Assembly: GCA_964035545.1 (NCBI GenBank)
Contig: OZ037770.1
Span: 12,718,642-12,782,641, forward strand
DNA: 64,000 nucleotides
Origin: Bugula neritina
Taxonomy: Eukaryota; Bryozoa; Gymnolaemata; Cheilostomatida; Bugulidae
Direction of reading: 5' to 3'
Position 1 is the stretch's first letter. Every line of letters begins with the position of its first letter. Both the position numbers and the translations under genes were made by a program. The notes beneath the pieces were generated by a model. The model worked only from the letters and a program-made list of their open reading frames with translations, made no database searches and was not told the DNA's origin. Positions 13,331 through 53,220 of the stretch are shown piece by piece.

Positions 13331-13499
13331 AGCCTGTGATAGAGATAAGAAAATTCTAAAAATTGCAGCAGGTACTAGTAAAGAAGATAGTTTGACTAAT
13401 AACTGATTCCAACATTCCGTAGTTTAGTAAAAATAGTTTACTGTGAGAAAAATATATTTTGACAACATGAAAAAATTAAATCACAATCAAAGTTAAGGC

Positions 13500-22000: not shown

Positions 22001-22016
22001 ATGGCTGGGAGAGAAG
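22001..22016 (+). CDS. Tentative first coding exon of the LRR-Roc-COR-caspase gene
   Basis: An ATG in good context (aacATGG) opens five codons, then a donor (GAAG then gttttaaac). Its phase fits the acceptor at 22788, where codon joining gives Asp-Val-Tyr. The donor is weak, so another first exon is possible. Confidence 0.4.
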
Positions 22017-25000
22017 GTTTTAAACTATTTATACTAATTAATATATTAGATTTATTCTAAGAAAACCTCCAAAGAGAACGGGCAGTTTTAAAACTGGCTT
22101 CAGTTTCTGTCAAAGCTTTTAAGTTTAACTTATTAAAAGTTAATGTTGTTACTGTTATTTATATAACTGATTTTCTTAGCCTAATTGTTCAAGTTTTATC
22201 TTTAAACTATTTTGTATTAGTCTGCTATTGCTATACTATAGCTTGTATTAAAATCATCTGGAAGATATCGGTTGCTGGGTTACTGTTCACTAGTGTATGG
22301 GTTATATGCACCGAGTAACAAATATTAGTAAATCAGATCATTCTTTACGATCAGTCGCTTATTATTGCTAAATCTATAAAAAATTTATAGCTTTTTTTGT
22401 TTTTTTAATAGATTACAGTATAATATAGCCATCAGGTAGAGTTCACCTTGTATATATAGAACATGCAATAATGTATTAAATAAAATACAGTAGAACCTGT
22501 GTTCTACAAACTATTTGAATATTGCTCTCTGCAGTGTACTCTAGTAAACTAGAAATAATAATTAACGATATTTGGTTTTAGCTCAGTTGTTTAATGCTGA
22601 ATATTTACAAAGTTTTTATCGCTGTTATTTGTATGTCTTTCTGATAGATTCCAGTATAATGTAACAGTTTGGTAAAGTTCATATTATGTGTGAAACATGT
22701 AGTGTGTTACAAAGTAGAACTTCTTTTCTGAGAACCTTTTTATTTTAGTAGACAGGAAATAATATTTCTTTATATATTATGCTGTAGATGTGTACAGACT
22801 GTGGATTGGACATAGTGGTATAGATATTCCTGAGTACTGGCTACGTGAAAGCGAAACAAAATACACTACTCAAAGTATAAAAAAGATTTCTCAGACCCAC
22901 ACTGTAACACATCTTGTTATATATGAAAAAATTCCATCACAGATCCATCTTATTTTCCCACACCTCACTCATCTCAGAATTTATGGAGTTCAACCATGTG
23001 ACCTTCAAAAGTGAGTGCATAATTCATTAGGTTATACAATTTTTCAAGTGTACTGAAATTTATGTTGGCAAAATGTAATGGCAGCGCCATTTTGTTTGTG
23101 CTGTTACTCTTGCTAATAAAGTTGTTTGTTACAGCATCAGCAAGTTGACTAATCTGAAGGTATTAGACATGGATCACAGTGACTTTTCTGCTGGTCTACC
23201 TGACATCTTCAGTTCTTTACTCTCTCTGGAAAAACTGACGTTGAACTACTGTAGCTTACGAACTCTTCCCAAGAGGTGAGCACACTTTACATTCTCTGCT
23301 ATGCTACTTATTGCACTTCCTTTCATATATCAACAAACCTAATCTCATTTCACACAACAGTTCAGCATGTCCTGTTTAGCACCTGATTTAGGCTTTTATA
23401 TAGTTTGTGAGTAGTATAGGTGTGTGTTTAATATTTCTTGTTGGTTTGCATGTAATATTCAATGTTAAATTGTTTAAAAATATTGTAATAATATAAATTT
23501 CAATGTTATTTAGCTTGTGCTAATCTAATACTCTTGCTAATAAAGTTGATTGTTACAGCATCAGCAAGTTGACTAATCTGAAGGTATTAGACATGAGTAA
23601 CAATAACTTTTCTGCTGGTCTACCTGACATCTTCAGTTCTCTACTCTCTCTGGAAGAACTGATATTGGGCTACTGTAGCTTACGAACTCTTCCCAAGAGG
23701 TGAGCACACTTTACATTCTCTGCTATGCTACTTATTGTACTTCCTTTCATATATCAGCAAACCTAATCTCATTTCACACAACAGTTCAGTATGTCCTGTT
23801 CAGCACCTGATTTAGGCTTTTATATAGTTTGTGAGTAGTATAGGTGTGTGTTTAATATTTCTTGTTGGTTTGCATGTAATACTCAATGTTATTGTTTAAA
23901 AATATTGTAATAATATAAATTTCAATGTTATTTAGCTTGTGCTAATCTAATACTCTTGCTAATAAAGTTGATTGTTACAGCATCAGCAAGTTGACTAATC
24001 TGAAGGTATTAGACATGAGTAACAATAACTTTTCTGCTGGTCTACCTGACATCTTCAGTTCTCTACTCTCTCTGGAAGAACTGATATTGGGCTACTGTAG
24101 GTTAAAGACTCTCCCCAAGAGGTGAGCACACTTTACATTCTCTGCTATGTTACTTAGCCTAGGGCCACACTGTGCGTATTTTCGCATGCGAAAATTGAAA
24201 TCACAAGTAGCAAAGGTGTCCACTGTGCGCGTTGAGAAAACATTCGCACTTGTCGCTCTGCATTTTCAACGCAAGTGCGAATCGTCTCTGTCGTCGTCAC
24301 CTAATTGGCTGGTAGTTATTCAGCGAGCCCAATTTCTTCATTTTAGTGCTACATTCCAGTAAATTGTGTTTTATTGAAAGCGAGTGCGATTTAAAAATGA
24401 AAGCTTTATTTATCACGCATCACTGACGCTACAGTGGACACCTTTGCTACTTGTGGTTTCAATTTTCGCATGCGAAAATACGCACAGTGTGGCCCTAGGC
24501 TTATTGTACTTCCTTTCATATATCAGCAAACCTAATCTCATTTCACACAACAGTTCAGTATGTCCTGTTCAGCACCTGATTTAGGCTTTAATATAGTTTG
24601 TGAGTAGTATAAGTGTGTGTTTAATATTTCTTGTTGGTTTGCATGTAATACTCAATGTTATTGTTTAAAAATATTGTAATAATATAAATTTCAATGTTAT
24701 TTAGCTTGTGCCAATCTAATACTCTTGCTAATAAAGTTGATTTTTACAGCATCAGCAAGTTGACTAATCTGAAGGTATTAGACATGGGTCACAATGACTT
24801 TTCTGCTGGTCTACCTGACATCTTCAGTTCTCTCCCCTCTCTGGAAAAATTAGAGTTGTGTGGGTGTAAATTAAAAGCTCTCCCCACAAGGTACAGCTTT
24901 ATCATAATATTCCATGCTACATTTCATATTTTTTCCTAAATCTTAGTTTCCTTATGATGTATAGCAATTTACTTTGATTTTGATTTTGAAAATACCTATA

Positions 25001-28000
25001 GATAATAGATATTATAACATACATAATGACTTTTTTTATATAATTTATTTATAAAGTTTAATTATAGCTAGTAGCTGATATTAAATTGGTCATCTTTCAC
25101 AGTGGATATGATTTATATCCCCCTGTTCACACATTACCGTTCCGTATGCCGTAATAGTAAATGTCCGCCATCTTTGGTAACATCCGGGCTGATCAAGCAG
25201 TGCTTGATTCAAAAATCACGGCTGGCTCCTATTGGGTAAAGTTGATCTGGTGCTAAAATTTTAAGAACATTTTTGCTAGTTTATTTTAATTGCTTATTGT
25301 TGATTCAATTCAGCCAATTCAAAAGTTTTATAGGATTAAAAAATCTTTATCCAGTATGTTTAAATTAAATTCAGCTTAAAAATCTAATCACAAAAGTACG
25401 CAAACTAAAAACTTAAAAATTATTTGGACAGCTAAAATATTTATTCAAATTAGTTTGCCTATTTATTTTAAGGACACATATATTTAAAAAAGAAATCAGT
25501 TCTTTTTAATTGCTTTTATTTAGTCAATAGCGTTTATATACATCTTTTGAAAATAATGGTGCGAATAATTTGTGAATAATATCCTGTCACAAATTCTGAG
25601 TGTACATATACCTATAGACTTACCGGGTTATTCCCAATGATTATACACGAATGTTCATAAATATTCTAGACTGATCGAAGAGATGGGTCATTGTTCATTG
25701 TTATTGTTTTCATTAGTCATGTTAACTACTGCCCAGCAATGTAAACAAGGTGTTGCGCAATAATTGCGAAATAACCATGGAAATTCCAATGTTTTGTTTT
25801 GTTTTGATTTTCTATAAATAGTATTGGCATGTGGGGAATGTTTTCTACTAGAATCTTCTATACTGGAATGCTTGAGAATGTTCTAGAGTTTTTTTGTTTA
25901 CTATAAATACTGAGGCAGTTGTGTTTACGAATCAGTTCATTCTCGGAGTTCATTTTTATAAATTCATCTGTGCATATCTTACTAGAAAAATAAAGTCTAC
26001 TTATATTCACAACTCTATTTACTCTCAACTGGATTAGCAAGCTGTATGCTACTTTTTTATACACTTCTGACTACCAGACTTTTCGAACTCGTCATACTGC
26101 TACCAACAGTTTTGTGACAATTGGGGCTGCTCCGGGAAGTCTCAGTCGCATACAGGGAAGTTATTAGTTACAACGTGAGCATACACAGGATTAATTAACA
26201 GTTGTTGAGACATCATGGCGTTGTTGGAGAGAGTGACACAGATGGGTAAAGATCTTGGACTGGTGGATGACAAGCTCGTAGCTTTTGTTGAAAAGAAACT
26301 ACCCATTGTTGCTGCACAAGAAGAAAAAGAAAAGGACCGAGAGGAAAAAGAAAAGGACCGAGAGGAGCGGAGATTAGAGCGTGAGGCGGAAAGGATCAGG
26401 CAAGAAAATGAGAAAGCCATAATGGAGATGAAGATAAAAGCTGACCAGGAGGCAGAAGAGAGAAGACAACAACATGAATTAGATATGGAAAAGCTGAAAG
26501 CTAACACAAGTTTGGAGCACTCAAGACATGAAAGCACCAGGTTAGAAATAGCTGACAAACCAAAACCAAAAATACCATTCTTTGATGAGAAGGTGGACGA
26601 AATGGATAGCTATTTAGAGCGGTTCGAGTGGGTTGCCGAAGGATGTAACTGGGACAAGGGAGATTGGCCCTACCATCTCAGTCAGTACCTAAGGGGTACA
26701 GCAACAGAAGCTTACATCCGGTTGTCACCTACGGATCGTAGAGATTATAAAAAAGTCAAAGAAGCCTTGTTGGAGCGCTTTAACTTGACTCAAGAGGGCT
26801 ACAGAAAAAAGCTCAGGGAGGCAGAAGCTTACGAGGATGAAACTCCTGCCCAACTATTCACTAGGATAGAAAGTTATGTGCACAAGTGGGTGGAGCTTTC
26901 AGGGGGCATGGACATAGCCAAACTAGTGGCGACTGAACAATTTATATCACCATGCCCAGACGACCTAGCTGTGCATTTAAAGCAAAGTTCCTACAACAGC
27001 AGTGAGGATATGTGTGATGCAGTGTCACTGTTCTTGCACGCCCGTGGAAGGAAACTAGCAAAGACAAAGAAAACTAATACAAAAAGGATGGAAAACACAC
27101 TTGCCGATAGCATGCATGCTGAACAAGGAAGTAAAAGCGATGGTGCATGCTTCATCTGCAAAGATAAATCACACATTGCTCGTAACTGCCCACGGCGAGG
27201 GAAGAAGTACTGTTCACATTGCATGATGAACAATCACAATACTTCAGACTGCAGAAAGTATGGTGGAAGGTCAGTGCATGCTGCTGCTGCAATAGCGACT
27301 ACTCAGAATAAGACTATGGTCACAGATCCAGGAATGTCATCTAAAGTGGAAGAACCTACTGAAATCACAGTTACCGGTAAAAAGTTTGTCAACGCTGCTG
27401 TCTGCAAGAATGGACCTAAATTCAAAGATGGGGGCACAGCAATATTTGATGCGGAAGTTAATGGCCAACGAGCTACTGTAATGCGCGACACCGGCTGTGG
27501 TTGCAATGTAGTCAATGCAAAGTATGTGCAACCTCAACACTTAACTGGAGAATCAGTTTATTTGAATATGGCTGATGCAAGTGTTAGGGAGGCTCAGTGG
27601 GCACTTATCTCAGTGCGCTCACTATTTTACAATGGTGTTGTCAAAGCTGCAGTAATGGACAAGACGATTTGTGACCTGTTTATTGGGAATGTAGATGGAG
27701 CAAGATCAGCTGACCAGCCGTTGGAAAACTGGAAGGACTGCGCCGTAACCACAAGAGCTCAAGCTGTCAAGGAAAAGTCAGGAGACAAACCACTGATAGT
27801 TGATTCAAATGCTAACCCATTAAGTATAGGGAAAGATGAGATAGCCAGACTGCAGAGGGATGACCCCACATTGGAACGTTTCTTCAATGCAAAAGAAGTG
27901 AAGAAGAAAAAGGGATGCACCACTAGGTTTGTGGTGAGGAATAAGATTCTGTACCGTGAGTACACCGACTCGAAGTCTGCCAGTGTAAAACCTGTTAAAC

Positions 28001-31000
28001 AACTCATGGTACCCAGTTCTCTGAGGAAGGAGGTTCTACAGAAAGCTCATGACTGCATAATGAGCAGACACCTAGGAGTAAAGAAAACCACTGATAGAGT
28101 GCTTTCCAACTTCTTCTGGCCAGGACTAAACGGAGATGTCGTACGTTTCTGTCAATCATGTGACATTTGCCAGAAGACGGTGAAAAAAGGCTCAGTCATG
28201 AAAGTTCCAGTACAGGAAACACCACTAATTGACACCCCATTCAAGAGATGTGCAATAGACCTAGTCGGACCAATTAACCCTCCAAGTGAGAAAGGACACC
28301 GCTACATCCTAACTTTAGTTGACTATGCTACAAGATATCCTGAAGCTACACCATTGAAGAACATTGACTCAGCTACTGTAGCTGAAGCGCTGCTTGACAT
28401 GTACAGTCGTGTTGAGATACCAGAGGAGGTGATAAGCGACCAAGGAACTCAATTCATCTCAGACTACATGAAAGAGTTTACCAGATTACTTGACATGCGA
28501 CAACTTCCTACTTCACCGTACCATGCAATGGCCAATGGACTTGTGGAAAAGTTCAACGGAACCCTCAAGAGTATGTTAAAAAAAGTTGTGTGCTAAAGAG
28601 CCAAGACAGTGGCATCGGTTCATCAATGCGGCTCTATTTGCATATAGAAAAGTCCCACAGGAATCAACAGGCTTCGCCCCATTCGAGTTACTCTATGGAA
28701 GAACTGTGCGTGGACCAATGTACATCCTGCGACAACTTTGGACAAAAGAAGACACTGCCGATGAAGTCAAGACCTGCTATCAGCATGTTTTTGAGTTGAG
28801 AGAGCGTTTGGATGACATGATGGAGATGGCACTAGCCTCGCTAAAAGACAGTCAAAAAAGATACAAACACTATTTTGACCAGAAAGCTAAGCAGAGAGAC
28901 TTCAAACCTGGTGACAAAGTGCTCATTCTTCTACCTACGGATGGAAATAAATTGTTGATGCATTGGCAAGGACCATTCAATATTGAGGAGAAAGTCAGAC
29001 TGAATGACTACATTATCAACATTAGAGGCAAGAGGAGAACATACCATGCCAACATGCTGAAGAAATATTTTGAGCGGGAGACGCCCACCAACCTTATGAC
29101 TGTTGGAGCTGTGATGACTTTAGATGCTGCTGGTACTGGAATTATTGATCACGATGAGGAAAGAGAAGAACGCTAAAATGATTTGTTCGACCTGTACGGT
29201 AAGAAACAGCAGACAGAAACAAGCAAAGATGTCTTTCTGGGTGAAAAGCTGGGGAATCAGCAAAGAAGACAGCTGGAGGAGTTACTAAGAAAGTTTGAAG
29301 GTATCTTCAGTGACTTGCCAGGAAATGCAACGGGAATAGAACATTCTATCAAGCTCACGACTGATGAGCCAGTGAAATCCAAACCATATGGATTGCCCTA
29401 CAGGGTAAGAGAGACTCTCAAGGCGGACATCGAGGACATGTTGAAGATGGGTGTTATTCGGCCGTCTACCTCTCTCTACGCTTCACCAACGGTGATAGTA
29501 AAGAAGCCAGATGGAGGCAACAGGATTTGTATAGACTATCGCAAACTAAACCGAGTCTCAGTATTCGATCCTGAACCAATGGTGAAAACAGATGACGTTT
29601 TCAGAAAGCTCAGTAAAGATAAATACTTTACCAAACTTGATTTATCCAAGGGATACTTGCAAATACCAGTGAAGAAAGAAGATATTCCTAAAACTGCATT
29701 TGTGACACCCGATGGACATTATGAATTCATCAAGATGCCATTTGGGATGGTTAACTCTGGAGCGACACTGGTGAGAGGGTTGAGAAAACTTTTTGTAAAT
29801 CTGAAAGGAGTGGACAACTACATTGATGACATTCTAGTGCACACGGAAAGTTGGGAAGAACACGTTAAAACGCTAACAGAAGTTTTCAGCCGACTTGCCA
29901 CAGCTGGACTTACCATTAAACCAAGTAAATGTAGAGTAGGAGGAACAAACGTGGAGTTCATCGGACATAAACTTTACAGGGGTGGAATTAAACCAATGGA
30001 TGACAACATTGAGAAAATTAGGGCTGCGCCAAGGCCAACCAATAAGACGCAAGTGAGATCGTTCATTGGACTTACTAGTTACTACAGAGAATATATCCCT
30101 CATTATTCAACTATAGCGAGTCCACTAACAGATTTAACAAAGAAGGGAGAACCAAAGAAAGTCAAATGGCAGGAACCACAAGAGAAGGCGTACACCAGCT
30201 TAAAAACAATGCTGACAAGTGCACCAATTTTAAAATTACCAGATGTACACAAACCGTTTGTGCTAAGGACGGATGCATCAGATGTTGGGCTAGGGGCAGT
30301 GCTGATGCAGCCTCAGGATGGAAAGCTGTTCCCTGTGAGTTACGCAAGTAGGAAATTACTAGACCGAGAAAAAAACTACTCAGCCATAGAGAAGGAATGT
30401 TTAGCTGTGGTATGGGCGGTCAAGAAATATCTACAATATTTATATGGTGTGGAGTTCGTGCTGCAGACTGATCACCAACCGCTGGTTTACATCAATTAGG
30501 CCAAATTTGAGAACAGCATAGTGATGAGATGGGCTATGTATTTACAGAACTTCAGAATCAAGGTGGAGTCAATCAAAGGAAAGGGCAATGTTGGAGCCGA
30601 TTATCTAAGCCGAATTGACTCAGAATTTTAAGTAGTAAGGAGAAATTATTAAGATAATTTCTCTTAGAATGGGGGGTTGTCACAAATTCCGAGTGTACAT
30701 ATACCTATAGACTTACCGGGTTATTCCCAATGATTATACACGAATGTTCATAAATATTCTAGACTGATCGAAGAGATGGGTCATTGTTCATTGTTATTGT
30801 TTTCATTAGTCATGTTAACTACTGCCCAGCAATGTAAACAAGGTGTTGCGCAATAATTGCGAAATAACCATGGAAATTCCAATGTTTTGTTTTGTTTTGA
30901 TTTTCTATAAATAGTATTGGCATGTGGGGAATGTTTTCTACTAGAATCTTCTATACTGGAATGCTTGAGAATGTTCTAGAGTTTTTTTTGTTTACTATAA

Positions 31001-34000
31001 ATACTGAGGCAGTTGTGTTTACGAATCAGTTCATTCTCGGTGTTCATTTTTATAAATTCATCTGTGCATATCTTACTAGAAAAATAAAGTCTACTTATAT
31101 TCACAACTCTATTTACTCTCAACTGGATTAGCAAGCTGTATGCTACTTGTCTATACACTTCTGACTACCAGACTTTTCGAACTCGTCACACTGCTACCAA
31201 CAGTTTTGTGACATATCCTAAAGCTTACAATTCACGACAGACAAGAATGACCCTTATTATGATTGGTTGAAGCTCAACATCATTCGTTGTAGTTTACGCC
31301 AGTGTGTGAACGCCTGTTGACAAAATGTAACGGCAGCGCCATTTTGTTTGTGCTGTTACTCTTGCTAATAAAGTTGATTGTTACAGCATCAGCAAGTTGA
31401 CTAATCTGAAGGTATTAGACATGGGTCACAATGACTTTTCTGCTGGTGTACCTGACATCTTCAGTTCTCTACTCTCCCTGGAAGAACTGATATTGGGCTA
31501 CTGTAGCTTACGAACTCTTCCCCTGACCCATTAATTTGATTGTTACAGCATCAGCACGTTGACTAATCTGAAGGTATTAGACATGGGTCACAATGACTTT
31601 TCTGCTGGTCTACCTGACATCTTCAGTTCTCTCCCCTCTCTGGAAAAATTAGAGTTGTGTGGGTGTAAATTAAAAGCTCTCCCCACAAGGTACAGCTTTA
31701 TCATAATATTCTATGCTACATTTCATATTTTTTCCTAAATCTTAGTTTCCTTATGATGTATAGCAATTTACTTTGATTTTGATTTTAAAAATACCCATAG
31801 ATAATAGATATCATAACATACATAATGACTTTTTTATATCAATTATTTATAAAGTTTAATTATAGCTAGTAGCTGATATTAAATTGATCATCTTTCACAG
31901 TGGATATGATTTATATCCCCTTGTTCACACATTGTCATCCCGTATGCCGTAATAGCAAATGTCCGCCATCTTTGGTAACATCCGGGCTGATCAAGCAGTG
32001 CTTGATTCAAAAAATCACAGCTGGCTCCCATTGGGTATATAGAGTTGATTTGGTACTAAAATTTTAAGAACATTTTTGCTAGTTTATTTTAATTGCTTAT
32101 TGTTGATTCAATTTAACCAATTCAAAAGTTTTATAGGATTAAAGATCTTTATCCAGTATGTTTAAATTAAATTCAGCTTAAAAATATAATCACAAAAGTA
32201 CGCAAACCAAAAACTTAAAAATTATTTGGACAGCTAAAATATTTATTCAAATCAGTTTGCCTAATTATTTTAAGGACACATAGGCTATATTTGAAAAAGA
32301 GATCGTTTCTTTTTAATTGCTTTTATTTAGTCAATAGCGTTTATATACATCTTTTGAAAATAATGTTGCGAATAGTTTGTGAATAATATCCTAAGGCGTA
32401 CAATTCACCGCAGACAAGAATTAGCCTAATTATGATTGGCCGAAGCTCAACAACATCATGTGTTGTACTTTACGCCAGTGTGTGAACGCCTGTTGACAAA
32501 ATGTAACGGCAGCGCCATTTTGTTTGTGCTGTTACTCTTGCTAATAAAGTTGATTGTTACAGCATCAGCACGTTGACTAATCTGAAGGTATTAGACATGA
32601 GTAAAATTAACTTTTCTGCTGGTCTACCTGACATCTTCAGTTCTCTACTCTCTCTGGAAAAACTGACGTTGAACTGCTGTAGGTTAAAGACTCTCCCCAA
32701 GAGGTGAGCACACTTTACATTCTCTGCTATGCTACTTATTGTTCTTCCTTTCATATATCAGCAAACCTAATCTCATTTCACACAACAGTTCAGCATGTCC
32801 TGTTTAGCACCTGATTTAGGCTGTTATATAGTGTGTGAGTAGTATAGGTGTGTGTTTAATATTTCTTGTTGGTTTGCATGTAATATTAAATGTTATTGTT
32901 TAAAAATATTGTAATAATATAAATTTCAATGTTATTTAGCTTGTGCTAATCTAATACTCTTGCTAATAAAGTTGATTGTTACAGCATCAGCAAGTTGACT
33001 AATCTGAAGGTATTAGACATGAGTAACAATAACTTTTCTGCTGGTCTACCTGACATCTTCAGTTCTCTACTCTTTCTGGAAGAACTGATATTGGGCTACT
33101 GTAGGTTACAGACTCTCCCCAAGAGGTGAGCACACTTTACATTATCTGCTATGCTACTTATTGCACTTCCTTTCATATATCACCAAACCTAATCTCATTT
33201 CACACAACAGTTCAGCATGTCCTGTTTAGCACCTGATTTAGGCTTTTATATAGTGTGTGAGTAATATAGGTGTGTGTTTAATATTTCTTGTTGGTTTGCA
33301 TGTAATATTCAATGTTATTGTTTAAAAATATTGTAATAATACAAATTTCAATGTTATTTAGCTTGTGCTTATCTAATACTCTTGTTAATAAAATTGTTTG
33401 TTACAGCATCAGCACGTTGACTAATCTGAAGATATTGGACATGAGTGAAAATAACTTTTCTGCTGGTCTACCTGACATCTTCAGTTCTCTACTCTCTCTG
33501 GAAGAACTGACGTTGAACTACTGTAGCTTACGAACTCTTCCCAAGAGGTGAGCACACTTTACATTCTCTGCTATGCTACTTATTGTACTTCCTTTCATAT
33601 ATCAGCAAACCTAATCTCATTTCACACAACAGTTCAGTATGTCCTGTTCAGCACCTGATTTAGGCTTTAATATAGTTTGTGAGTAGTATAAGTGTGTGTT
33701 TAATATTTCTTGTTGGTTTGCATGTAATATTCAATGTTATTGTTTAAAAATATTGTAATAATATAAATTTCAATGTTATTTAGCTTGTGCTAATCTAATA
33801 CTCTTGCTAATAAAGTTGATTGTTACAGCATCAGCAAGTTGACTAATCTGAAGGTATTAGACATGGGTCACAATGACTTTTCTGCTGGTCTACCTGACAT
33901 CTTCAGTTCTTTCCCCTCTCTGGAAAAATTAGACTTGTGTAGGTGTAAATTAAAAGCTCTCCCCACAAGGTACAGCTTTATCATAATATTCTATGCTACA

Positions 34001-46000: not shown

Positions 46001-49000
46001 GTTGTCATTAGGCATGAACACTGACTCAAAGTTGGCCATATTAATTTACATTTTAAGTTAGCCGCCACAATTTCAAGAAGAAAAAAATAACTTTGTACAG
46101 ATTGCATAGGAACGTGTGGTTTTCCTTCAATGTAATCCGTATGGGCATTCGTACAGATTCATTCGCCAGTATGGAAGCGCAGTGATTAGGTTCATACCAG
46201 TTTTGATTTCCCATGTCGCAGTGACTGATTTTGTGGTTAGTGTTACCACATACTAGGTATTGTGTAGGGTGAGTAGCATGAGTGTGTTGAGCTTCAAATA
46301 TAGTGAGAAGTAGCAGATATTTACTAATATAATGGTTGGATGATATAAAATTGTGGGGCTTGACTTGCTGAATAACCAACCTGAACCTACTAATTACTAT
46401 AAACTTCAGTATATTCCATGCTTCATTTTATGAAGATAAGCCACATTATATCCAAAATGTTTTTTTATATATTGATTATAGGAGAACTTTCTAAAACACT
46501 AATTTTCTATAGAAAATGGTTTTAGTAAAGAAAATTATCTAGTTGATATTTTAAAATGTCGTGATTGTAGTTGTCTGGTATGACATATATTCTGGTAATG
46601 CAGTATAATGAGCATTGTTTACAGTTTGGAAACTCTGCTCAACTTGAGAAAACTGGATCTTACCTGGGGGATGTTTGGTCAGATTCCTGATTCAGTATAT
46701 GCCATGGAAAGCTTGGAAACCCTTGAACTTGCAGGCTGCCGGGGTCTTACACATATAAGTCCCAAAATTCTCCAGCTTACTAAGTTGCAAAGTCTCAACT
46801 TAGAGTATTGCTCAAGTGTGACGGTTCCACCATATGAGATTCTTAAACAAGGATTAAACGCAATCAAACAGTATTTCATAGACTTGAAAATGGGAGCTGG
46901 AAACAACCTCCCACTTGTTACAATTGCGGTTATTGGCAACACCATGGCTGGAAAAACTAGTCTCATTCAAACCTTGCAAAGTACCAGCAGAACCAGAATA
47001 TTAACCAATCGTAATCTTGGAAACAGAATTGATGAAACTACAAAAATCTTCAAAGTGGAAAAGTTGGAAATTGAAAAGGTTTTGCTACAGCTTATTGATA
47101 TGGGCGGGAATGAAATCTACCACACTACATACCAACTCGCTCTGCATCAAAATTGCATCCCTTTAATTGTTGCCAACCTGGTGCAATACAATGATCTGGT
47201 ACAAAAATCATCTGAAAGAGAGGCTGTCCGTAGACTCGCCTTCGATTATATGTCACACCTCTATCTTGCAAACCCTTCTATGGGCTCACCAAAACTTGTC
47301 CTCACACACAAAGATCTCTTTAGTGATGCAAAGTTTGCTGAATTGAAACACAGTTTTTTAAGCACTTGTAATCAGTTATGTAAAGAAACTGTTGAAGAGG
47401 AAAAGCAGTTGAAGGGCAGTTTCTCTCTCATTGAGCGATTTTCAGATTCAACTGAGGATATTTTTCTTCCCGAAGATGTTTTTGAGATTGGTGTCAAAGA
47501 AAGTTATGCTTATTTTGATTCATTGAAAATGAACCTTTTTTTCACATGTCAGCTGTTTATTGAAATTCTGCCAGCATTTTGGGAACAAGTTAGTCAAAAG
47601 GTTTGTTCTCTACCCTTGGCATACAACACTTTTGATGACCTTTTCAATTATTTAAAGCAGAGTTTCCAGTCAATTGAGCAAGCACAGTTTCAAATAATTC
47701 TCAACTATATGCACCAATGTGGGAAGATATTGTGGTACAAGAGCAGTAAAGGCCTTGAGGACTACATTTTTCACAATATTTCAGCATTGACAGATCTATT
47801 GGCAGTGTTTTACAGCCACGAAGGAAACAGATGGAGACAACGGCAAAGGAATTTTGTTCCTTTTCTAGACGAAGGCGGGATGAGAATAGAACGTGAAAGA
47901 TTTGATGAATTTGTCCAAGTTTTCAATAGCACTGCTGTTATGAATAAACAACTTTTCTTTTACCTGATAAAAAGTGAAACGTTGTTCAAAAGCAAAAATG
48001 ATTTGCTTGTTGCAATGAATGTTTTGAAAGCATTTCGTCTAATCCATGGTCCAGTTCCCTGTGGTGTCACCAGTACAGGATTTTTCATTCCTTACATGGT
48101 AGAGAAATTTTGTGATCGGGACGTTTTGTCAAAAGAAGAACTAAGCTTGCGAGTAGACCTAGTTTTCAAAGGTTTATCTCTACCACAATATGCTTATCAT
48201 CAGATGAGTGTAGGAATGCTAGAGTTTTTTCCTAGCTTGATTGCTTCACCAATGGTGCACAAGGATGGTGCAAGTGTTTTTCATGATGGTTTGGTTGTTC
48301 AACTAATCCATGACTACAAGTCAAGGAAAATTTCCATCTATGTGGCTTCCGCTGCAAGAAGAGTTTGTGAAATGTGGAAGCAGCTCTTTAAAATCACGAA
48401 TAATGCCCTTCAACACGTCACCCACTCATGGCCTGCAAGCCGGCCAGTTGTAACCAGTTTTTGTGCTCATTGTTTGTTGATACAACATCCAAATCCTGAA
48501 AAGATAGTTAATCCTCAATGGGCTGTCATTCCTAAAAAAGAAAGTTCACCTCATACTTCAGCAATCAACATGCCTTTGTCAAATACTCTTGAACCAGAAA
48601 GATCAAGATACTCATCTGCGATGTTACATGATCCCTCTGCACAGTGTAGATGCAAAAGAGAAACCGTTTTTGCTGTGTTTAAACATCCTTGCGCATGTAA
48701 GTTTTATTGGTAGTGATATGAATCAAAACATGTCTATATGTCAACTTTAAACTACATGTTGTTGTAATTAAGTCTTGTGTCTGATTATTGATTATCCTCC
48801 CGCTCAACTTGAGTCATCTGATCAGTGTTTTAGACATTGTGACATTTTAGTCATGGGATTTAAAGTTGATTGTTTAAAGATTTAAAACAATATCTGAGTC
48901 AACTTTGCTAGTTCACTCGACCAATTATTGGCTCTAAATTTTTTAATTCTGCAGACTAGCTTACTTTCAAATTTAATCTACAGTGTGCATATAATAAAAC

Positions 49001-51777
49001 TAAAAATTCAAGTTACAATCTTCCCTAATGTGTTGATTCCCAATAATTTTATTGGGTTATTTATTGTAGCCAATTCCCTGCAACCCAGTGAATCTGAGAA
49101 ATTCACTGAGTTTGTGAAACAGCTGAAATCTCGGGGAGAACAAGCCAATGTTGGTAAGAAACTTCTTTGTGAAACTTGAAATTGATAAACTCCTTTTAGA
49201 AAAAACAACATTAAATTATCAACTACATTTTACATAATTTATTTCTTATTAGACTTTAAATGAAAGATTCAAAATTACAAGTCAATTGTTGAGAAAATTG
49301 TTAATAACTATTTTGATATTTTTTATTAGGCCAACAGTGAGCAATTTTCTTGAAACTTGTGATAATATGTTTGAAAAATTTTTGAAACATTTATTCTTTG
49401 GTCCCAGTTTTCAAACTTTTTGTTTGCAAATTATTATATAGAGATGACCAGACAGGCGGATCTCAGATCAACTGTTGCCATGGAAACCCCAGATGAACTC
49501 GGTGATCTCTCAGAAGATGATGACAACATTGTTCCAGAACAAGATGGAAGACGTCAGAGGGTCCAGATTCGACTTACAGTAACACCTACCACTCATCCCA
49601 AAGTGCAGGAGCTCTTTAATAATACCGAAAAGGTGACTTTGCAAGGCTTGAACTAATTAGAGTTGGCCTAAATCATTTTTAAACACTTTTCATTAAAAAA
49701 TTAAATTAGAAAATAGCAAATAACAACAAAAGCACCAGATTCTTCTCGATCTGTCAGCAATTTTTCAGGTCTCCTTCTAGCAAATTCTTTAAACTTTTAA
49801 CCTGTAATTATGAAAACATTAAGATATATATTTTTAATTTTTTACTATGTTGGTTCTAGAACTTGTGCGAACTGTGGCATTTTGTACAAAAATAAGTTAC
49901 AGTAGTTTCATTGAACATCACATTCTTTGTTAAATGGTTTCATTCCTGTAGTATGATATGCAGTACTTCAATTTGTTAACTTTTGTTTTAAATAAGGTAT
50001 ACAATATGACAAAGAAAAGAGGCAGAGCATTGATAATCAACAATGAAAACTTTCTTGAAAGACCTGACCTTCAGCGGAAAGGGTCAAATGCTGATGTTGT
50101 CAATATGTTGGACATGATGAAAGCTTTCAAATTTGAAGTTTTGATCCAACAAGATCTTAAAGCAGAGGTAGCATAATCAAAATGTGTTACTCGTGTGTTC
50201 TTTAATCATTGTAGGCAAATATCAAAGCTTTTTTTTAACAATTTATGCTCTTCAATGAATAAATGTCTATAAAGAGATAGAAAGTTTATCCCAACTAATT
50301 TTAACTTTTAGCTGACCAAATAGTAATATTATTTTTATTGCAGTATGGGTTTTTTTAATAGTTACTCTAGTGTTTATGCATTTTATAATCTGACATTTTA
50401 TATTTATACAAATTATACAAGAGTTAGATAATTTTGCGCTCGAATCTGTTTGCCTACATCTGCCATCTGTGCCTATATCTGCCATCTGTGCCTATATCTG
50501 CCTACATTTTTGATTACAGGATATGCTGAAAGCTATCAAGGCTGAAGTGGAGAACCAGGTGCATGAAGACTATGGGTGTCACATGTTAGTCATCATGAGT
50601 CATGGGAGTAGGAATAACCAGATCCATGGCACTGATATGAAGGCTATTGACCTTGCAAATGTGTTTGACCTTCTCTCTCCTCTCAACTTTCCTGGAATGT
50701 CTGGTAAACCTAAGATGGTGGTGTTGGAAGTGTGCAGTGGAGGTAAAAACTTATCTGTTGTATACAAATCTAGAGCAGGCTGCTTATAGACTCAAACCTA
50801 GTTACTTTGGTAGTATATGCTATTGAAAATTGTTTTTACTCGCTGGTTTGTAATTCTTGCAACTTCAGTATACACGTTTTTGTATATTTTACTCAAATAA
50901 AGAGGCTTAAAATAATTAATTGGGGGCAGGGGTTTAGGTATAACAATTAAGCTTTATTCTGTAAGAAATTGACCACCAGCAAGGCGAAATCTATTTCACC
51001 CATAATGAATATTCGATCATAAAAGTCGCCAATGCATATTGTTGTTGAAAACCCATGAGCCTAACCTATGCATTTCAAACTTACTTCAAGAATTTCATAT
51101 CACTCAGAAATATTTTTAGATTTCCTGTTGGCTTTTTAGAAGATCACATAATCATTTTATTAATTTTTGTAGCTTTGTTTCTCATATAACAATACTACAT
51201 TTGATGAAAATTTCAAAACTATTTTGCATTATTCATTTTTATCCTCATCACATTCATTGAAATTTTGGCTTATTATTTTATACTATAGCTTTATTATTCA
51301 TACTTTAATAAACGTTTTACTTACTCATATAAAATTAGTTCCCCATTTGCAATGAATATCTCGCCGGGGAGAAGTGCTGAATAATTTTTGAAACAGACGA
51401 TGCCTAGCTGACTTGGTTTATTTTGCTAGACTGTTTAACATATTTGATTGGTCACTTTGTCACATTTTTTTATAAGCTAATTTATTTACGAATGAATCCG
51501 GGGTATCAAATTGAGTTTGATGTATATAATATGTATTTTAGTTCGATCAGATCTTGGTGAACAAGGGGTTGTAACAGATATGCAATTTAAATCTGTTTCT
51601 GGCGAGCAAGCTGAGTATGAGGTAGTGCCTGCTCTACCCTCAAAAGTTGGTCACCGACAACTAGAAGCTGAGTCTAAAACTAGACTAAACTCTGATGACT
51701 TGATTGTAATTAAGTCTAGCTTTGAAAGTGAGTTATTTGCAAAATATCTGTATCATAGTTTCAACTTCAACACCCAT

Positions 51778-51855
<78 letters not shown>

Positions 51856-52110
51856 AGGAAAAGAGCAATTTAATTATATAGATGTTGTTTTATTGTACTA
51901 CTAATAGTTTCATGCCTCTTCGGCACTCCTCAGGCACAATATTTGTGCCTGAGGAGTGCCGAAGAGGCATGAAACTATTAGTAGTACAATAAAACAACAT
52001 CTATATAATTAAATTGCTCTTTTCCTCAATAATATAATTGCTCATTATTATACACATAATAATTTGAGCACTTTTTTATCGCTGTTTTTTTAAAAATCTC
52101 ACGATACAAT

Positions 52111-52209
<99 letters not shown>

Positions 52210-52487
52210 GTATCAATCTGTGGACAGCAGCTGTTTCGAGATTTGTCCCCTCATCAGCACAGAGCAGAGTACCATGGCCCACACCTTCGCAATAGTAGAA
52301 ACTTATAGTTTTACTAAAGCATATTTAAAAGGTGTGTAAACCCAAGCCAGAATGCTCAAGTGACTCTAGGGGTCACCTAGGAGTCACGAGCATTGCTAAA
52401 TGCTAGCAGCTTGAGTTTGTGACCATGGTGAGAGAGCTCAATCATTTAATGTCATTGCTGAGCATTAAATGAGAGCGTAATATCTCA

Positions 52488-52564
<77 letters not shown>

Positions 52565-53220
52565 GAATTTATATAAATATTTAGAACATATATAATACAA
52601 TACTGAGTTGTGATGAACATGGATGTGTATTTTGTAGGTTTCCTGGCAGTAAGACATGATGTTTACGGTTCCCTAATGATCAGAGCTCTTGTGTCCACCA
52701 TGTATAAACATGCCGGCCATCATCCCATGTGTAAAATCTTCAAAAACGTAAGTTTCTTGAAAGCATTGTGCTACTAGATAACTTTGCCATTTGTATGGAT
52801 AAATTTTGTGTGATAATAAAAAAATTATGCAAAAGGTGGGGTTTGAACCCATGCTGCACCAACTCAATATTCAGATGGTCTGTCTTTATGCCAAAACTAA
52901 CCTGACAATTGTAGTACACAACATTATATAGAGCAATGCATCCAGTTAAATTCTTAACTAATAATCAGACAGATGGGAAACTTTATATGTGTTTTTTTAT
53001 CAAATCATTAGAATTACTTGTGAGTCATTCCCCCACACTATAAGATACAGTGCACTAAACATATTGTATATTATTATTTTAGGTTCAGCAGAAGGTTAGA
53101 AAAACTTGTCTGGCGAAAAAATTGCATCAAGGACAGATGGTAGTGACATACGACACCCTGACTCATGGGAGACAACTCTATCTCTTTCCTGGATTTAATG
53201 GAGGTAGACGGAGAGAGTGA
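22001..53220 (+). CDS. LRR-Roc-COR-caspase protein, about 36 exons
   Basis: Exons: 22001-22016 (tentative), 22788-23010, 26 LRR exons between 23135 and 42956 (listed in the array entry), 46625-48696, 49070-49153, 49442-49632, 49997-50167, 50520-50742, 51542-51727, 52638-52747, 53083-53220 (TGA). Phases agree throughout. Using the 23 LRR exons with intact borders the product is about 2,218 residues. Domain order is a short N-terminal segment, about 46 LRR half-units plus the LRRs of the Roc exon, Roc GTPase, COR, an acidic linker, and caspase p20 and p10. No signal peptide or membrane segment is seen, so it is probably cytosolic. By analogy with ROCO proteins the COR domain should dimerise and GTP should switch the state; the caspase domain suggests a proteolytic or cell-death output. 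That the LRR exons, the Roc exon and the caspase exons form one transcript is inferred from strand, spacing and phase. Two adjacent genes, split between 48.7 and 50 kb, is the main alternative. Confidence 0.72.
22788..23010 (+). CDS. N-terminal exon of the LRR-Roc-COR-caspase gene
   Basis: A 223-bp exon with acceptor gctgtag and donor gtgagt, entering in phase 1 and leaving in phase 2. It encodes about 74 residues with a WIGHSGIDIPEYWL segment and then alternating hydrophobic residues (VTHLVIYEKIP, FPHLTHLRIYG) that look like a degenerate LRR or capping region. It leads in phase into the first 141-bp LRR exon. I do not recognise the N-terminal part. Confidence 0.65.
23135..42956 (+). CDS. Tandem array of 26 symmetric 141-bp LRR exons
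   Basis: Exon starts, each 141 bp: 23135, 23559, 23981, 24750, 31387 (broken), 31549, 32563, 32985, 33407, 33829, 34839, 35264, 35688, 36110, 36532 (altered donor), 37525, 37947, 38369, 38791, 39801, 40226, 40650, 41072, 41494 (altered donor), 42487, 42816. Each begins with the C of CATCAGC after ttacag and ends at AAGAG before gtgagc (or ACAAG before gtacag), so each enters and leaves in phase 2 and adds 47 residues. The consensus is S-ISKLTNLKVLDM-xxxx-FSAGLPDIFSS-LLSLEEL-xxxx-C-xLxTLPK, that is two LRRs per exon. Neighbouring exons are usually 422-425 bp apart, with near-identical introns. A promoter-side spacer containing ggcagcgccattttgtttgt recurs seven times (near 23082, 31329, 32508, 34789, 37470, 39751, 42432) and marks the start of each exon group. 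Any exon can be skipped or added without changing the frame. Confidence 0.85.
24157..24500. mobile_element. 344-bp Harbinger-like MITE in an LRR intron
   Basis: Terminal inverted repeats of about 70 bp with one mismatch (outer end GCCTAGGGCCACACTGTGCG) are flanked by a TTA target duplication at 24154-24156 and 24501-24503. The exon spacing here is 769 bp; removing 347 bp restores the normal 422 bp, so the empty site can be read from the neighbouring introns. A 3-bp TTA duplication and GGGCC-type ends fit PIF/Harbinger MITEs. No transposase is encoded. The TIRs include the palindrome TTTTCGCATGCGAAAA. Confidence 0.85.
25585..26119 (+). repeat. 5' LTR
   Basis: 535 bp, starting TGTCACA and ending TGTGACA. 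It has a TATA-like ctataaatagta near 25813 or tataaatactg near 25903, and an AATAAA signal near 25988, as expected of U3-R-U5. Confidence 0.93.
26215..28596 (+). CDS. Retrotransposon Gag, protease and most of integrase
   Basis: A 793-codon frame with ATG 95 bp after the 5' LTR. Residues 30-105 are a charged Glu/Arg/Lys coiled coil, followed by a capsid-like region. Two zinc knuckles of CX2CX4HX4C type (CFICKDKSHIARNC and CSHCMMNNHNTSDC) lie near residues 310-350. The aspartic protease motif is MRDTGCG near residue 425. An integrase HHCC zinc domain (HDCIM..RHLG, then CQSCDICQ) is at about 615-660, followed by the catalytic core with Asp in CAIDLVGP, Asp in VISDQGTQF and Glu in GLVEKFNG. The frame ends just after the core because a 7-A run shifts it into another frame; the C-terminal part continues at 28586 in the +1 frame. 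No RT motif lies upstream of the integrase. Confidence 0.9.
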   Translation: MALLERVTQMGKDLGLVDDKLVAFVEKKLPIVAAQEEKEKDREEKEKDREERRLEREAERIRQENEKAIMEMKIKADQEAEERRQQHELDMEKLKANTSLEHSRHESTRLEIADKPKPKIPFFDEKVDEMDSYLERFEWVAEGCNWDKGDWPYHLSQYLRGTATEAYIRLSPTDRRDYKKVKEALLERFNLTQEGYRKKLREAEAYEDETPAQLFTRIESYVHKWVELSGGMDIAKLVATEQFISPCPDDLAVHLKQSSYNSSEDMCDAVSLFLHARGRKLAKTKKTNTKRMENTLADSMHAEQGSKSDGACFICKDKSHIARNCPRRGKKYCSHCMMNNHNTSDCRKYGGRSVHAAAAIATTQNKTMVTDPGMSSKVEEPTEITVTGKKFVNAAVCKNGPKFKDGGTAIFDAEVNGQRATVMRDTGCGCNVVNAKYVQPQHLTGESVYLNMADASVREAQWALISVRSLFYNGVVKAAVMDKTICDLFIGNVDGARSADQPLENWKDCAVTTRAQAVKEKSGDKPLIVDSNANPLSIGKDEIARLQRDDPTLERFFNAKEVKKKKGCTTRFVVRNKILYREYTDSKSASVKPVKQLMVPSSLRKEVLQKAHDCIMSRHLGVKKTTDRVLSNFFWPGLNGDVVRFCQSCDICQKTVKKGSVMKVPVQETPLIDTPFKRCAIDLVGPINPPSEKGHRYILTLVDYATRYPEATPLKNIDSATVAEALLDMYSRVEIPEEVISDQGTQFISDYMKEFTRLLDMRQLPTSPYHAMANGLVEKFNGTLKSMLKKVVC
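28586..29176 (+). pseudogene. Integrase C-terminal part in a shifted frame
   Basis: This frame continues the integrase (ALFAYRKVPQESTGFAPFEL, YGRTVRGP) and then a basic C-terminal domain with a GDKVLILLP and HWQGPF motif like the gypsy GPF/GPY module. It is offset by one base from the upstream frame at the A run near 28581, and it ends at a TAA at 29174-29176. Mutation or homopolymer sequencing error are the likely explanations; the direction does not fit an ordinary -1 slip. Confidence 0.85.
29183..30631 (+). pseudogene. Retrotransposon reverse transcriptase and RNase H, with stop
   Basis: RT motifs are in order: KPDGGNRICIDYRKLN, FTKLDLSKGYLQIPV, MPFGMVNSGATLVRG, and the catalytic NYIDDILVH. 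RNase H follows (RTDASDVGLGAVLMQ, ending near TDHQPLVYIN). A TAG at 30497-30499 interrupts the frame in RNase H; the same frame continues to a TAA at 30629-30631. This region is in the same frame as the integrase C-terminus, separated by only one stop. Confidence 0.9.
30678..31213 (+). repeat. 3' LTR
   Basis: 536 bp, nearly identical to the 5' LTR. Differences seen include one extra T in a T run, tctgag versus tccgag near the start, cggagttc versus cggtgttc, and cttttttat versus cttgtctat near the end. A small stem-loop and the G-rich polypurine tract precede it. Confidence 0.93.
31387..31521 (+). pseudogene. LRR exon that has lost its splice donor
   Basis: A 141-bp-type exon matching its relatives (GHNDFSAGVPDIFSS) until CTTCCC, then a jump directly into the end of an intron (ctgacccattaatttgattg). 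The intact counterpart is the exon at 42487 with its intron ending near 42815. A deletion at a ccc microhomology removed the last codons, the donor and most of the intron. Read-through meets a TAA three codons on, so the exon must be skipped. Confidence 0.85.
36532..36672 (+). pseudogene. LRR exon with altered splice donor
   Basis: A terminal-type LRR exon (ICNLTNLKVLDLRHNDFSAG) in which the usual ACAAG/gtacag border reads ACAAGttacag. The only GT is one base earlier (36672), which would shift the frame. The exon is probably skipped or rarely used. The identical change is found in the duplicate copy. Confidence 0.6.
41494..41634 (+). pseudogene. LRR exon with altered splice donor, duplicate copy
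   Basis: The second copy of the exon at 36532, with the same donor change (ACAAGttacag), as expected if the change predates the 4,962-bp duplication. Confidence 0.6.
43416..44930. mobile_element. 1.5-kb foldback element with ~0.55-kb inverted arms
   Basis: The left arm 43416-43966 and right arm 44350-44930 are long imperfect inverted copies of each other. Examples are aatatttttactaaaaatat near the inner ends, gtgttagcatgt in the middle and ggcatttataattt with gttgtctcc at the outer ends. The AT-rich loop is about 380 bp. It lies in the intron between the last LRR exon and the Roc exon. No transposase or clear target duplication is seen, so its class is open. The open frame inside the right arm (44490-44768) is not conserved coding sequence. 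Confidence 0.75.
45200..45345. mobile_element. hAT-like repeat remnant
   Basis: It shares ctttgagggccacataaatg, taggctgg and the upstream ccactctaattcatata stretch with the repeat at 61876-62168. It ends ggccctggcaccaactgttgg, which resembles the degenerate ends of old hAT elements. Only a fragment remains. Confidence 0.4.
46625..48696 (+). CDS. Last LRRs, Roc GTPase and COR exon
   Basis: A 2,072-bp exon with acceptor tttacag (phase 2) and donor gtaagt (phase 1), encoding about 691 residues. Residues 1-75 are further LRRs (SLETLELAGCRGLTHISPKI, LQSLNLEYCSS). The Roc domain follows: G1 loop GNTMAGKTSL at 46935, G3 DMGGNEIYH, G4 THKD. The THxD form instead of NKxD is typical of ROCO proteins. 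The remaining about 400 residues match COR in layout (LPAFWEQV, LYNYL-like DLFNYLKQSF, GVTSTGFFIPYM, EFFPSLIASPMVHKD) and end in a Cys/His-rich piece (CAHCLLIQHPNP). ROCO GTPases dimerise through COR and signal through the attached effector domain; here the next exons encode a caspase, where LRRK proteins carry a kinase. Confidence 0.9.
49070..49632 (+). CDS. Linker exons between COR and caspase
   Basis: Two exons, 49070-49153 and 49442-49632, in phases 1-1 and 1-0. They encode a polar helix-like piece (EKFTEFVKQLKSRGE) and an acidic, probably flexible stretch (ETPDELGDLSEDDDNIVPEQ) that could house a processing site. They have no recognised domain; their phase fit links the COR exon to the caspase exons. 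Confidence 0.7.
49997..50742 (+). CDS. Caspase large-subunit (p20) exons
   Basis: Exons 49997-50167 and 50520-50742. The caspase start is plain: VYNMTKKRGRALIINNENF, then RKGSNADVVNMLDMMKAFKF with the Arg and N-x-D of the S1 pocket region. The catalytic His lies in MLVIMSHGS and the catalytic Cys in VVLEVCSGG. In most caspases the Cys motif is QACxG, so Glu-Val replaces Gln-Ala. All residues needed for Cys-His catalysis are present. The upstream border is uncertain, since an acceptor at 49953 would keep the same frame and add 15 residues. Confidence 0.88.
51542..53220 (+). CDS. Caspase interdomain linker and small-subunit (p10) exons, gene end
   Basis: Exons 51542-51727, 52638-52747 and 53083-53220 (TGA). 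The first encodes a linker with Asp residues that could be cleavage sites (VVTDM, NSDDLI). The second gives SFLAVRHDVYGSLMIRALV, the equivalent of the p10 segment YVSWRxxxxGSWFIQAL, keeping the S1-pocket Arg but with Ala for the usual Trp. The third gives VQQKVRKTC and DTLTHGRQLYLFPG, matching the usual C-terminal tail of caspases. The protein stops soon after, so nothing follows the protease. The introns hold long (AT)n tracts, a palindrome and a hammerhead motif. Confidence 0.87.
51781..51850. repeat. (AT)n microsatellite
   Basis: About 35 uninterrupted AT units in the intron after the exon 51542-51727, abutting the palindrome. Confidence 0.95.
51847..52035. repeat. Perfect 189-bp palindrome with hammerhead-like core
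   Basis: Two 93-base arms, identical by eye, flank the 3-base centre tat at 51940-51942. On each strand the arm contains CTGAGGA, a 5-bp stem (GTGCC/GGCAT) with a gaaga loop, GAAA, and a 4-bp stem (ACTA/TAGT) followed by A. This meets the CUGANGA...GAAA...NUH hammerhead pattern (51949-51986 on the plus strand). Stem I next to the core is poorly paired, so activity is doubtful. A perfect palindrome this long can also be an assembly artefact. Confidence 0.8.
52114..52205. repeat. (AT)n microsatellite
   Basis: About 46 AT units immediately beside the hammerhead motif; read on the minus strand, the ribozyme would release a 5' end shortly before this tract. Confidence 0.95.
52217..52263 (-). ncRNA. 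Type I hammerhead ribozyme motif
   Basis: On the minus strand all conserved elements occur in order: UCUGUG (stem I), CUGAUGA, stem II GGGG/UCUC with a short loop (including G-U pairs), GAAA with stem III ACAG-CUG-CUGU, cleavage triplet GUC, then CACAGA, which pairs perfectly with UCUGUG. Cleavage is predicted between 52223 and 52222. By known biology such motifs in animals belong to Penelope-like elements, retrozymes or satellite-like repeats. No Penelope reverse transcriptase is visible here. The motif is antisense to the host gene and lies in an intron. Confidence 0.8.
52494..52562. repeat. (AT)n microsatellite
   Basis: About 34 AT units just upstream of the p10 exon at 52638. Confidence 0.95.
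52832..52900 (-). repeat. tRNA-like SINE relic
   Basis: On the minus strand GGGTTCAAACCCCACC is a good Pol III B box and is preceded by a possible tRNA-like arm. An A box and a body cannot be shown, so it is at most a relic. Confidence 0.3.

Follow-up and report, generated by a model that had tools for sequence, protein, structure and literature searches.

In Bugula neritina, a single gene on chromosome 6 probably encodes a predicted intracellular receptor-protease, in which a long and variable LRR array, a Roc-COR switch, an acidic linker and a caspase resembling CED-3 and caspase-9 would be joined in one chain dispensing with CARD, DED and adaptor, and the gene belongs to a large family in this 215.8 Mb genome. 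The window, by which we mean the whole 64,000-nucleotide stretch of DNA that was analysed, carries this gene on its + strand from 22.0 to 53.2 kb, where a series of LRR exons is followed by one Roc-COR exon, a pair of linker exons and five exons for the caspase, all readable as one gene. The features of the gene and the other elements annotated in the window are as follows.

22001..22016, + strand: possible first coding exon (ATGGCTGGGAGAGAAG, ATG); phase 1 out, fitting the next exon; weak donor GTTTTA
22788..23010, + strand: exon for the N-terminal cap that precedes the LRR array; entered in phase 1, left in phase 2
23135..42956, + strand: array of 26 LRR exon copies, found by motif search; phase 2 in and out
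25585..31213, + strand (the sense of the gene): LTR retroelement inside the LRR array, not part of the gene; LTRs at about 25585-26119 and 30678-31213
26209-28596, + strand: retroelement ORF 1, SCAN-like/integrase, the SCAN-like match being under the Pfam cut-off
29177-30499, + strand: retroelement ORF 2, RT-RNase H
46625..48696, + strand: end of the LRRs, Roc GTPase and a weakly matched COR region; entered in phase 2, left in phase 1
49070..49153, + strand: linker exon 1, a segment of about 28 aa that looks helical by eye; phase 1 at both borders
49442..49632, + strand: linker exon 2, acidic and Asp-rich; phase 1 in, 0 out
49997..50167, + strand: caspase exon 1, start of p20 (RGRALIINNENF); phase 0 in and out
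50520..50742, + strand: caspase exon 2, p20, containing the catalytic His (SHG) and Cys (EVCSG); entered in phase 0, left in phase 1
51542..51727, + strand: caspase exon 3, p20/p10 intersubunit region
52638..52747, + strand: caspase exon 4, p10
53083..53220, + strand: caspase exon 5, end of p10 with stop
56602-63644, + strand: selenium-binding protein gene (SBP56, Pfam PF05694), downstream; four open frames match

The 3′ part of the gene consists of the last eight exons, which are separated by seven introns, all GT-AG, with phases that agree, and which form an open frame of 1,057 residues. The exon reading bore out the preliminary description in that the parts lie on the + strand, in the order it had given and with compatible phases; GNTMAGKTSL, DMGG and THKD fall within exon 46625-48696, SHG and EVCSG within exon 50520-50742, and the frame closes at 53220 with the stop that had been claimed. 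The start of the Roc-COR exon, previously placed at 46599/46604, was corrected, its most likely position being 46625 (tttacag/T), where a homologous phase-2 AG is found in 20 of the 22 paralogs described below; the exceptions are L032, which has lost the AG, and L019, which has the same AG and a frameshift further in, within the LRR part. From acceptor to donor the exon is open in 21/22 paralogs, and it is open in L032 even though the acceptor AG is gone. On the caspase side, the intron that separates caspase exons 3 and 4 contains, at 51760-52560, three long TA microsatellites and what looks by eye like an inverted repeat, and the assembly may be weak there.

The domain identities were determined by profile searches, among them the HMM search of the predicted protein that had been proposed earlier. 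Using Pfam on the 1,057-residue part, matches over the cut-off were obtained for Roc (7.8e-7) and Peptidase_C14 (9.2e-35, profile positions 1-219 of 233), together with weak matches for COR-A (0.005) and COR-B (0.014), both under the cut-off. Across the family, Roc was recognized in 16/16 members, COR-A in 15/16 (best 4e-5) and COR-B in 3/16 (Pfam, E up to 0.1), and the Roc G motifs are conserved across an alignment (A1) of the window copy with 15 of the 22 paralogs. The PDB profile matches that span from the LRRs into Roc are to LRRK1, LRRK2 and a chain named Rab family protein, and for the Roc part the closest solved structures, compared by sequence, are chains named Rab family protein and LRRK1. 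We take the chains with that name to be bacterial Roco. A structure model of the Roc-COR exon made without an alignment reached a pLDDT of 33 and a pTM of 0.20 and was unusable for a fold search. For the caspase, the best PDB match was CED-3 (8.5e-19), the other close ones being chains named only Caspase, an ancestral caspase and caspase-9 (4e-17); at the level of sequence only, the Pfam C14, CED-3 and caspase-9 matches identify a caspase fold that includes both the large-subunit and the small-subunit part.

No Pfam match to a CARD, DED, death, pyrin, NACHT or kinase domain was obtained in the 3′ 1,057 residues. Neither these residues nor the linkers searched alone matched a CARD/DED prodomain, and a search of them with E up to 1 gave no NACHT or other STAND ATPase, the N-terminal LRR part having been scanned in pieces. 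The central claim of the preliminary description, namely that LRR, Roc-COR and caspase are combined within a single gene, is supported on the strength of the paralog family.

To describe this family, 39 Roc matches in open frames of at least 400 aa, among the 150 Roc matches listed, were compared with the positions of 150 of 176 C14 matches. A listed C14 match was found within 10 kb downstream and on the same strand for 32 of the 39 long Roc-COR frames, and upstream or on the opposite strand for none; both searches score part of the candidates, so that these numbers are minima, and the Roc of the window is itself absent from the listed matches. Of the seven unpaired frames, four (L022, L026, L033 and L034) were examined by tblastn, and all four show a caspase exon. 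Next, 22 distinct paralog loci (L014-L035) were examined, L013 being a duplicate of L017 that was excluded from the counts. The Roc-COR exon was present in 22/22 and the first caspase exon in 21/22, and those caspase exons that were detected are arranged in order along the strand that carries Roc-COR. The full set of five was recovered in four loci (L015, L016, L017 and L031), four exons in ten loci, three in three, two in two, one in two and none in one; the missing exons may reflect divergence, loss or the end of a stretch, and the stretch of L020 stops short of its caspase match, which is listed 8.5 kb downstream.

The pairing was also recovered from the caspase side. Two loci chosen as caspases without a listed Roc, L036 and L037, were read over 10 kb, and both have a diverged Roc-COR exon upstream (35-39% identity). 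Among the C14 loci taken with 1.5-kb flanks, a COR end was found in L012 and none within that flank in L009, L010 and L011. In L038 together with the adjacent L018, one paralog shows the arrangement from cap and LRR exons through to Roc-COR and caspase. Judged from these recurrent arrangements, the Roc-COR/caspase pairing is not one of chance neighbours. By extrapolation, adding the 87 unpaired C14 groups of the pairing analysis would bring the family to the order of a hundred genes, and some of these groups may well be ordinary caspases, such as L009 with its single 345-aa open frame. In prokaryote genomes, 18 stretches matched two peptide patterns and none of them encodes a relative by tblastn; the phage records gave no match.

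The junction between COR and caspase was then examined for the alternative that two adjacent genes, one for LRR-Roc-COR and one for the caspase, form a head-to-tail pair that is kept by tandem duplication and expressed separately. Such a pair would be consistent with the Met that all printed copies have close to the beginning of the first caspase exon (VYNM, VFSM and similar) and with the distance from the COR donor to that exon, which ranges from 708 to 5,627 nt. The coding conservation of COR, however, halts at a homologous phase-1 GT donor (CCAT/GTATGT or close) in 22/22 distinct paralogs, the window donor lying 6 nt beyond the paralogs' site with its phase unchanged. Beyond this point, the frame first meets a stop 0 to 46 codons after the tblastn match ends; this stop is common to close copies but differs among distant ones, which argues against a gene end at COR, because a gene that ended there should retain its stop.

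The two linker exons bear on the same alternative. In the paralogs, linker 1 is conserved as about 30 residues of the ETLSEAETNQLKKFLSELKLRREQ type and linker 2 as an acidic segment, DDLSDLSEDDDNLYP ... TTNPKIKQLFSNTDK, and the acceptor of the first caspase exon is in phase 0 in 21/21 paralogs showing that exon. When sites were ranked by score alone, linker 1 was recovered with phases 1/1 in 16/22 segments, and linker 2 with a phase-0 donor in 20/22 and a phase-1 acceptor in 16/22; in the remaining segments the linker 1/linker 2 block is absent or has a different best site. The top-scoring linker-2 acceptor is out of phase in 6/22 segments, the window included, which is a point in favour of two genes; the homologous site in the window is in phase and was adopted. 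The pN/pS ratios between paralog pairs, with pairs of pS at least 0.6 excluded, were 0.64 for linker 1 (38 pairs, 16 copies) and 0.39 for linker 2 (68 pairs, 19 copies), and in five close copies linker 1 gave 0.27, as compared with 0.73, 1.16 and 2.38 for the three reading frames of a 60-nt piece of the adjacent intron. A Met at the start of linker 1 was found in 0/16 copies. By these measures both linkers behave as coding sequence that bridges phase 1 to phase 0. With constrained linker exons joining the two parts, separately expressed neighbours are highly improbable, and the one-gene reading, which would imply a single mRNA across the junction, is the one followed below.

The 5′ end and the LRR array were read from the same strand. 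The first exon, and with it the 5′ end, is uncertain because its donor GTTTTA is weak. The cap exon that follows has a homologue upstream of the LRR exons in the paralog formed by L038 and L018 (38% along 63 aa; 7e-13 when that locus alone was searched). An LRR exon with the ttacag acceptor measures 141 nt, or 47 aa, and holds two LRRs; two such exons joined gave an LRR_4 match at 1.2e-14. In 26/26 LRR exons the acceptor with the highest score is a phase-2 site, and in 17 of them it sits 45 nt upstream of the adopted ttacag site, where its use would add a stop in 14/17. Among donors, the top-scoring one is a phase-2 site for 23/26, the exons at 31397, 36542 and 41504 appearing to be without a donor. 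As the LRR exons are phase-symmetric, an exon that is skipped keeps the frame. In the paralogs, a regular-expression search recovered no upstream LRR exons, and tblastn found 20 LRR exon stretches in 8/20 loci, with the best donor in phase 2 in 20/20 and the best acceptor in phase 2 in 13 of the 16 readable.

Two further features mark the array. A tandem duplication at about 31530-42360, with a step near 4.96-4.98 kb and 98.7% identity over 5.9 kb, comprises nine or more LRR exons and represents either recent array growth or an assembly effect. The LTR retroelement is a young insertion, since its LTRs agree at 100% along a part of 300 nt and at 98% along another of 231 nt. Its integrase precedes its RT, an order that, with SCAN, recalls Gmr1-like elements. 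Elsewhere in the window, open frames on the − strand at 8035-8406, 13112-13423 and 16910-17263 might be exons of other genes and had no Pfam match at E up to 0.01. The retroelement, the recent duplication and the three LRR exons without donors could together indicate that the window copy is a decaying member of the family, in which damaged paralogs do exist (L019 and L032). The eight Roc-COR-caspase exons are nevertheless all open with the catalytic residues kept, the retroelement sits between exons, and skipping of the phase-symmetric LRR exons would preserve the frame, so decay of this copy seems rather unlikely.

The Roc-COR and caspase parts are under purifying selection, with median dN/dS ratios of 0.21 for Roc-COR (n=131) and 0.20 for caspase p20 (n=113), calculated from pairs with dS 0.05-1.5 and with L019 read after its frameshift. 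A different distribution of changes was found in the LRRs, for which 17 of the 26 window exons were analysed, namely those outside the second copy of the tandem duplication, which holds the other nine. Eight of 46 LRR codons, the exposed x positions of LxLxxNxL, take 61% of the non-synonymous differences, a share reached by 0/20,000 random sets of eight codons, and pN/pS is 1.20 at the exposed positions versus 0.42 elsewhere; as the pairs are not independent, this excess is a pattern and not a formal test of positive selection. Such change at exposed positions is what a binding surface would show, and we regard these positions as a predicted surface for a ligand. In one pair of paralogs, L025 and L032, the Roc-COR parts are similar (dS 0.25) and the p20 parts very different (dN 0.52), a mismatch that points to exchange of caspase modules between paralogs.

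The catalytic residues of the caspase were read in 20 copies, three of 23 being unreadable. The His is kept in 19/20 and the Cys in 15/20, and the window copy has both. Ser replaces the Cys in 5/20 (L019, L021, L022, L028 and L029), all located at C6:2.6-4.1 Mb, and Leu replaces the His in one (L024, C6:4.70 Mb). The interval C6:2.6-4.1 Mb also includes a Cys copy, L033. The S1-pocket residues named in PMC11121540, Arg, Gln and Arg, were placed on these caspases by eye: the first Arg is kept in 22/22 readable copies, the window included; the position of the Gln is occupied in 20 copies by Glu (15), His (3) or Gln (2); and the p10 Arg is present in the window copy and in 13/16 readable paralogs, with Ile in L015, L016 and L018. 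Since the pocket Gln is mostly Glu and the p10 Arg sometimes Ile, specificity for Asp is doubtful and should not be assumed.

These substitutions raise the question of whether, in most members, the caspase part of the one chain serves mainly as a scaffold or regulatory domain and not as a working protease. The Ser and Leu replacements and the usual Glu in the pocket would fit such a role, as would p20 dN/dS ratios of 0.26-0.55 among the Ser copies L019, L021, L028 and L029; a raised ratio, however, is also found between two Cys copies (L026 and L035, 0.63), and the retention of Cys and His in most copies, together with the low median p20 ratio, speaks against it. We consider a mainly non-proteolytic caspase part unlikely, and a protease that would be active in most members is the preferred reading. 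The Ser-for-Cys paralogs are possible decoys; pseudocaspases such as cFLIP-L are described in PMC11121540 as regulators of active partners.

A mechanism can be proposed from what is known of the protein families. A ligand would be bound by the LRR face, upon which the Roc-COR module may alter its nucleotide and dimer state; bacterial Roco proteins pass through a nucleotide-dependent dimer cycle. Two caspase domains would thereby approach each other and could be activated by induced proximity, and cleavage in the p20/p10 linker, perhaps also in the Asp-rich linker, would free the protease and begin cell death. The Cys-to-Ser members might act as decoys or heterodimer partners, as cFLIP does for caspase-8. 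We infer that the protein may be called an inflammasome-like receptor. If true, sensor, GTPase switch and caspase in one polypeptide would constitute another design of death receptor, with Roc-COR replacing the STAND ATPase, and it becomes a testable question whether a ROCO GTPase cycle can drive the induced-proximity activation of a protease.

As a family, the genes are candidates for immune or allorecognition receptors of bryozoans, and our literature search turned up no publication describing such a family. We tentatively suggest, as a possibility somewhat short of even, a receptor system built by bryozoans from LRR-Roc-COR-caspase genes numbering on the order of a hundred, in which exon-cassette LRRs diversify, caspase modules are exchanged and protease-dead decoys are clustered, and whose products would serve as adaptor-free, GTP-gated death receptors against microbes or for allorecognition between colonies.

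Each part of the predicted protein has relatives among known systems. Like LRRK1, LRRK2, MFHAS1 and bacterial Roco, it carries LRRs directly before Roc and a putative COR, but its output domain is a caspase, with no kinase match in the 3′ 1,057 residues. With CED-3 and caspase-9 it shares p20 and p10, the catalytic His and Cys and an RGxALIIN start, whereas its prodomain is LRR-Roc-COR and theirs is CARD, DED or short, and the pentapeptide is EVCSG here versus QACxG in animal caspases. Animal initiator caspases are usually activated on adaptor platforms. In amphioxus, a shortcut past adaptors has been described in the form of direct receptor-caspase fusions, TNFR-caspase and LRRs-caspase (PMC2575513), in which, as here, the receptor part is fused straight to the caspase; the word Roc occurs 0 times in the main text of PMC2575513. 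In the brown alga Ectocarpus, an expanded and clustered set of LRR-ROCO genes, with LRRs from repeated exons and a proposed immune role, has been reported (Zambounis 2012, as described in PMC4104024); its exons are of 72 nt with a single LRR versus 141 nt with two LRRs here, and its C-terminal parts, unlike ours, are not called caspases in PMC4104024. The ROCO proteins of Trichoplax, which according to PMC4104024 carry CARD, death or TIR domains, are likewise joined to cell death, but through adaptor domains there and through the protease itself here.

The preliminary description had known of no LRR-Roc-COR-caspase protein, and no such chain was seen in our literature search, which covered mostly titles and the starts of abstracts, with few subscription journals. 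The claim of novelty nevertheless needs qualifying, because the amphioxus fusions and the brown-alga LRR-ROCO family with its exon cassettes, as those sources describe them, had already been reported: receptor-caspase fusion, ROCO with cell-death domains and exon-cassette LRR-ROCO are each known, and it is their combination as LRR-Roc-COR-caspase that would be new. With the NLR inflammasome receptors, finally, the predicted protein shares the common plan of LRR sensor, NTP switch and caspase output, but a Roc-COR GTPase takes the place of the NACHT/STAND ATPase, the LRRs are N-terminal and the caspase lies within the chain.
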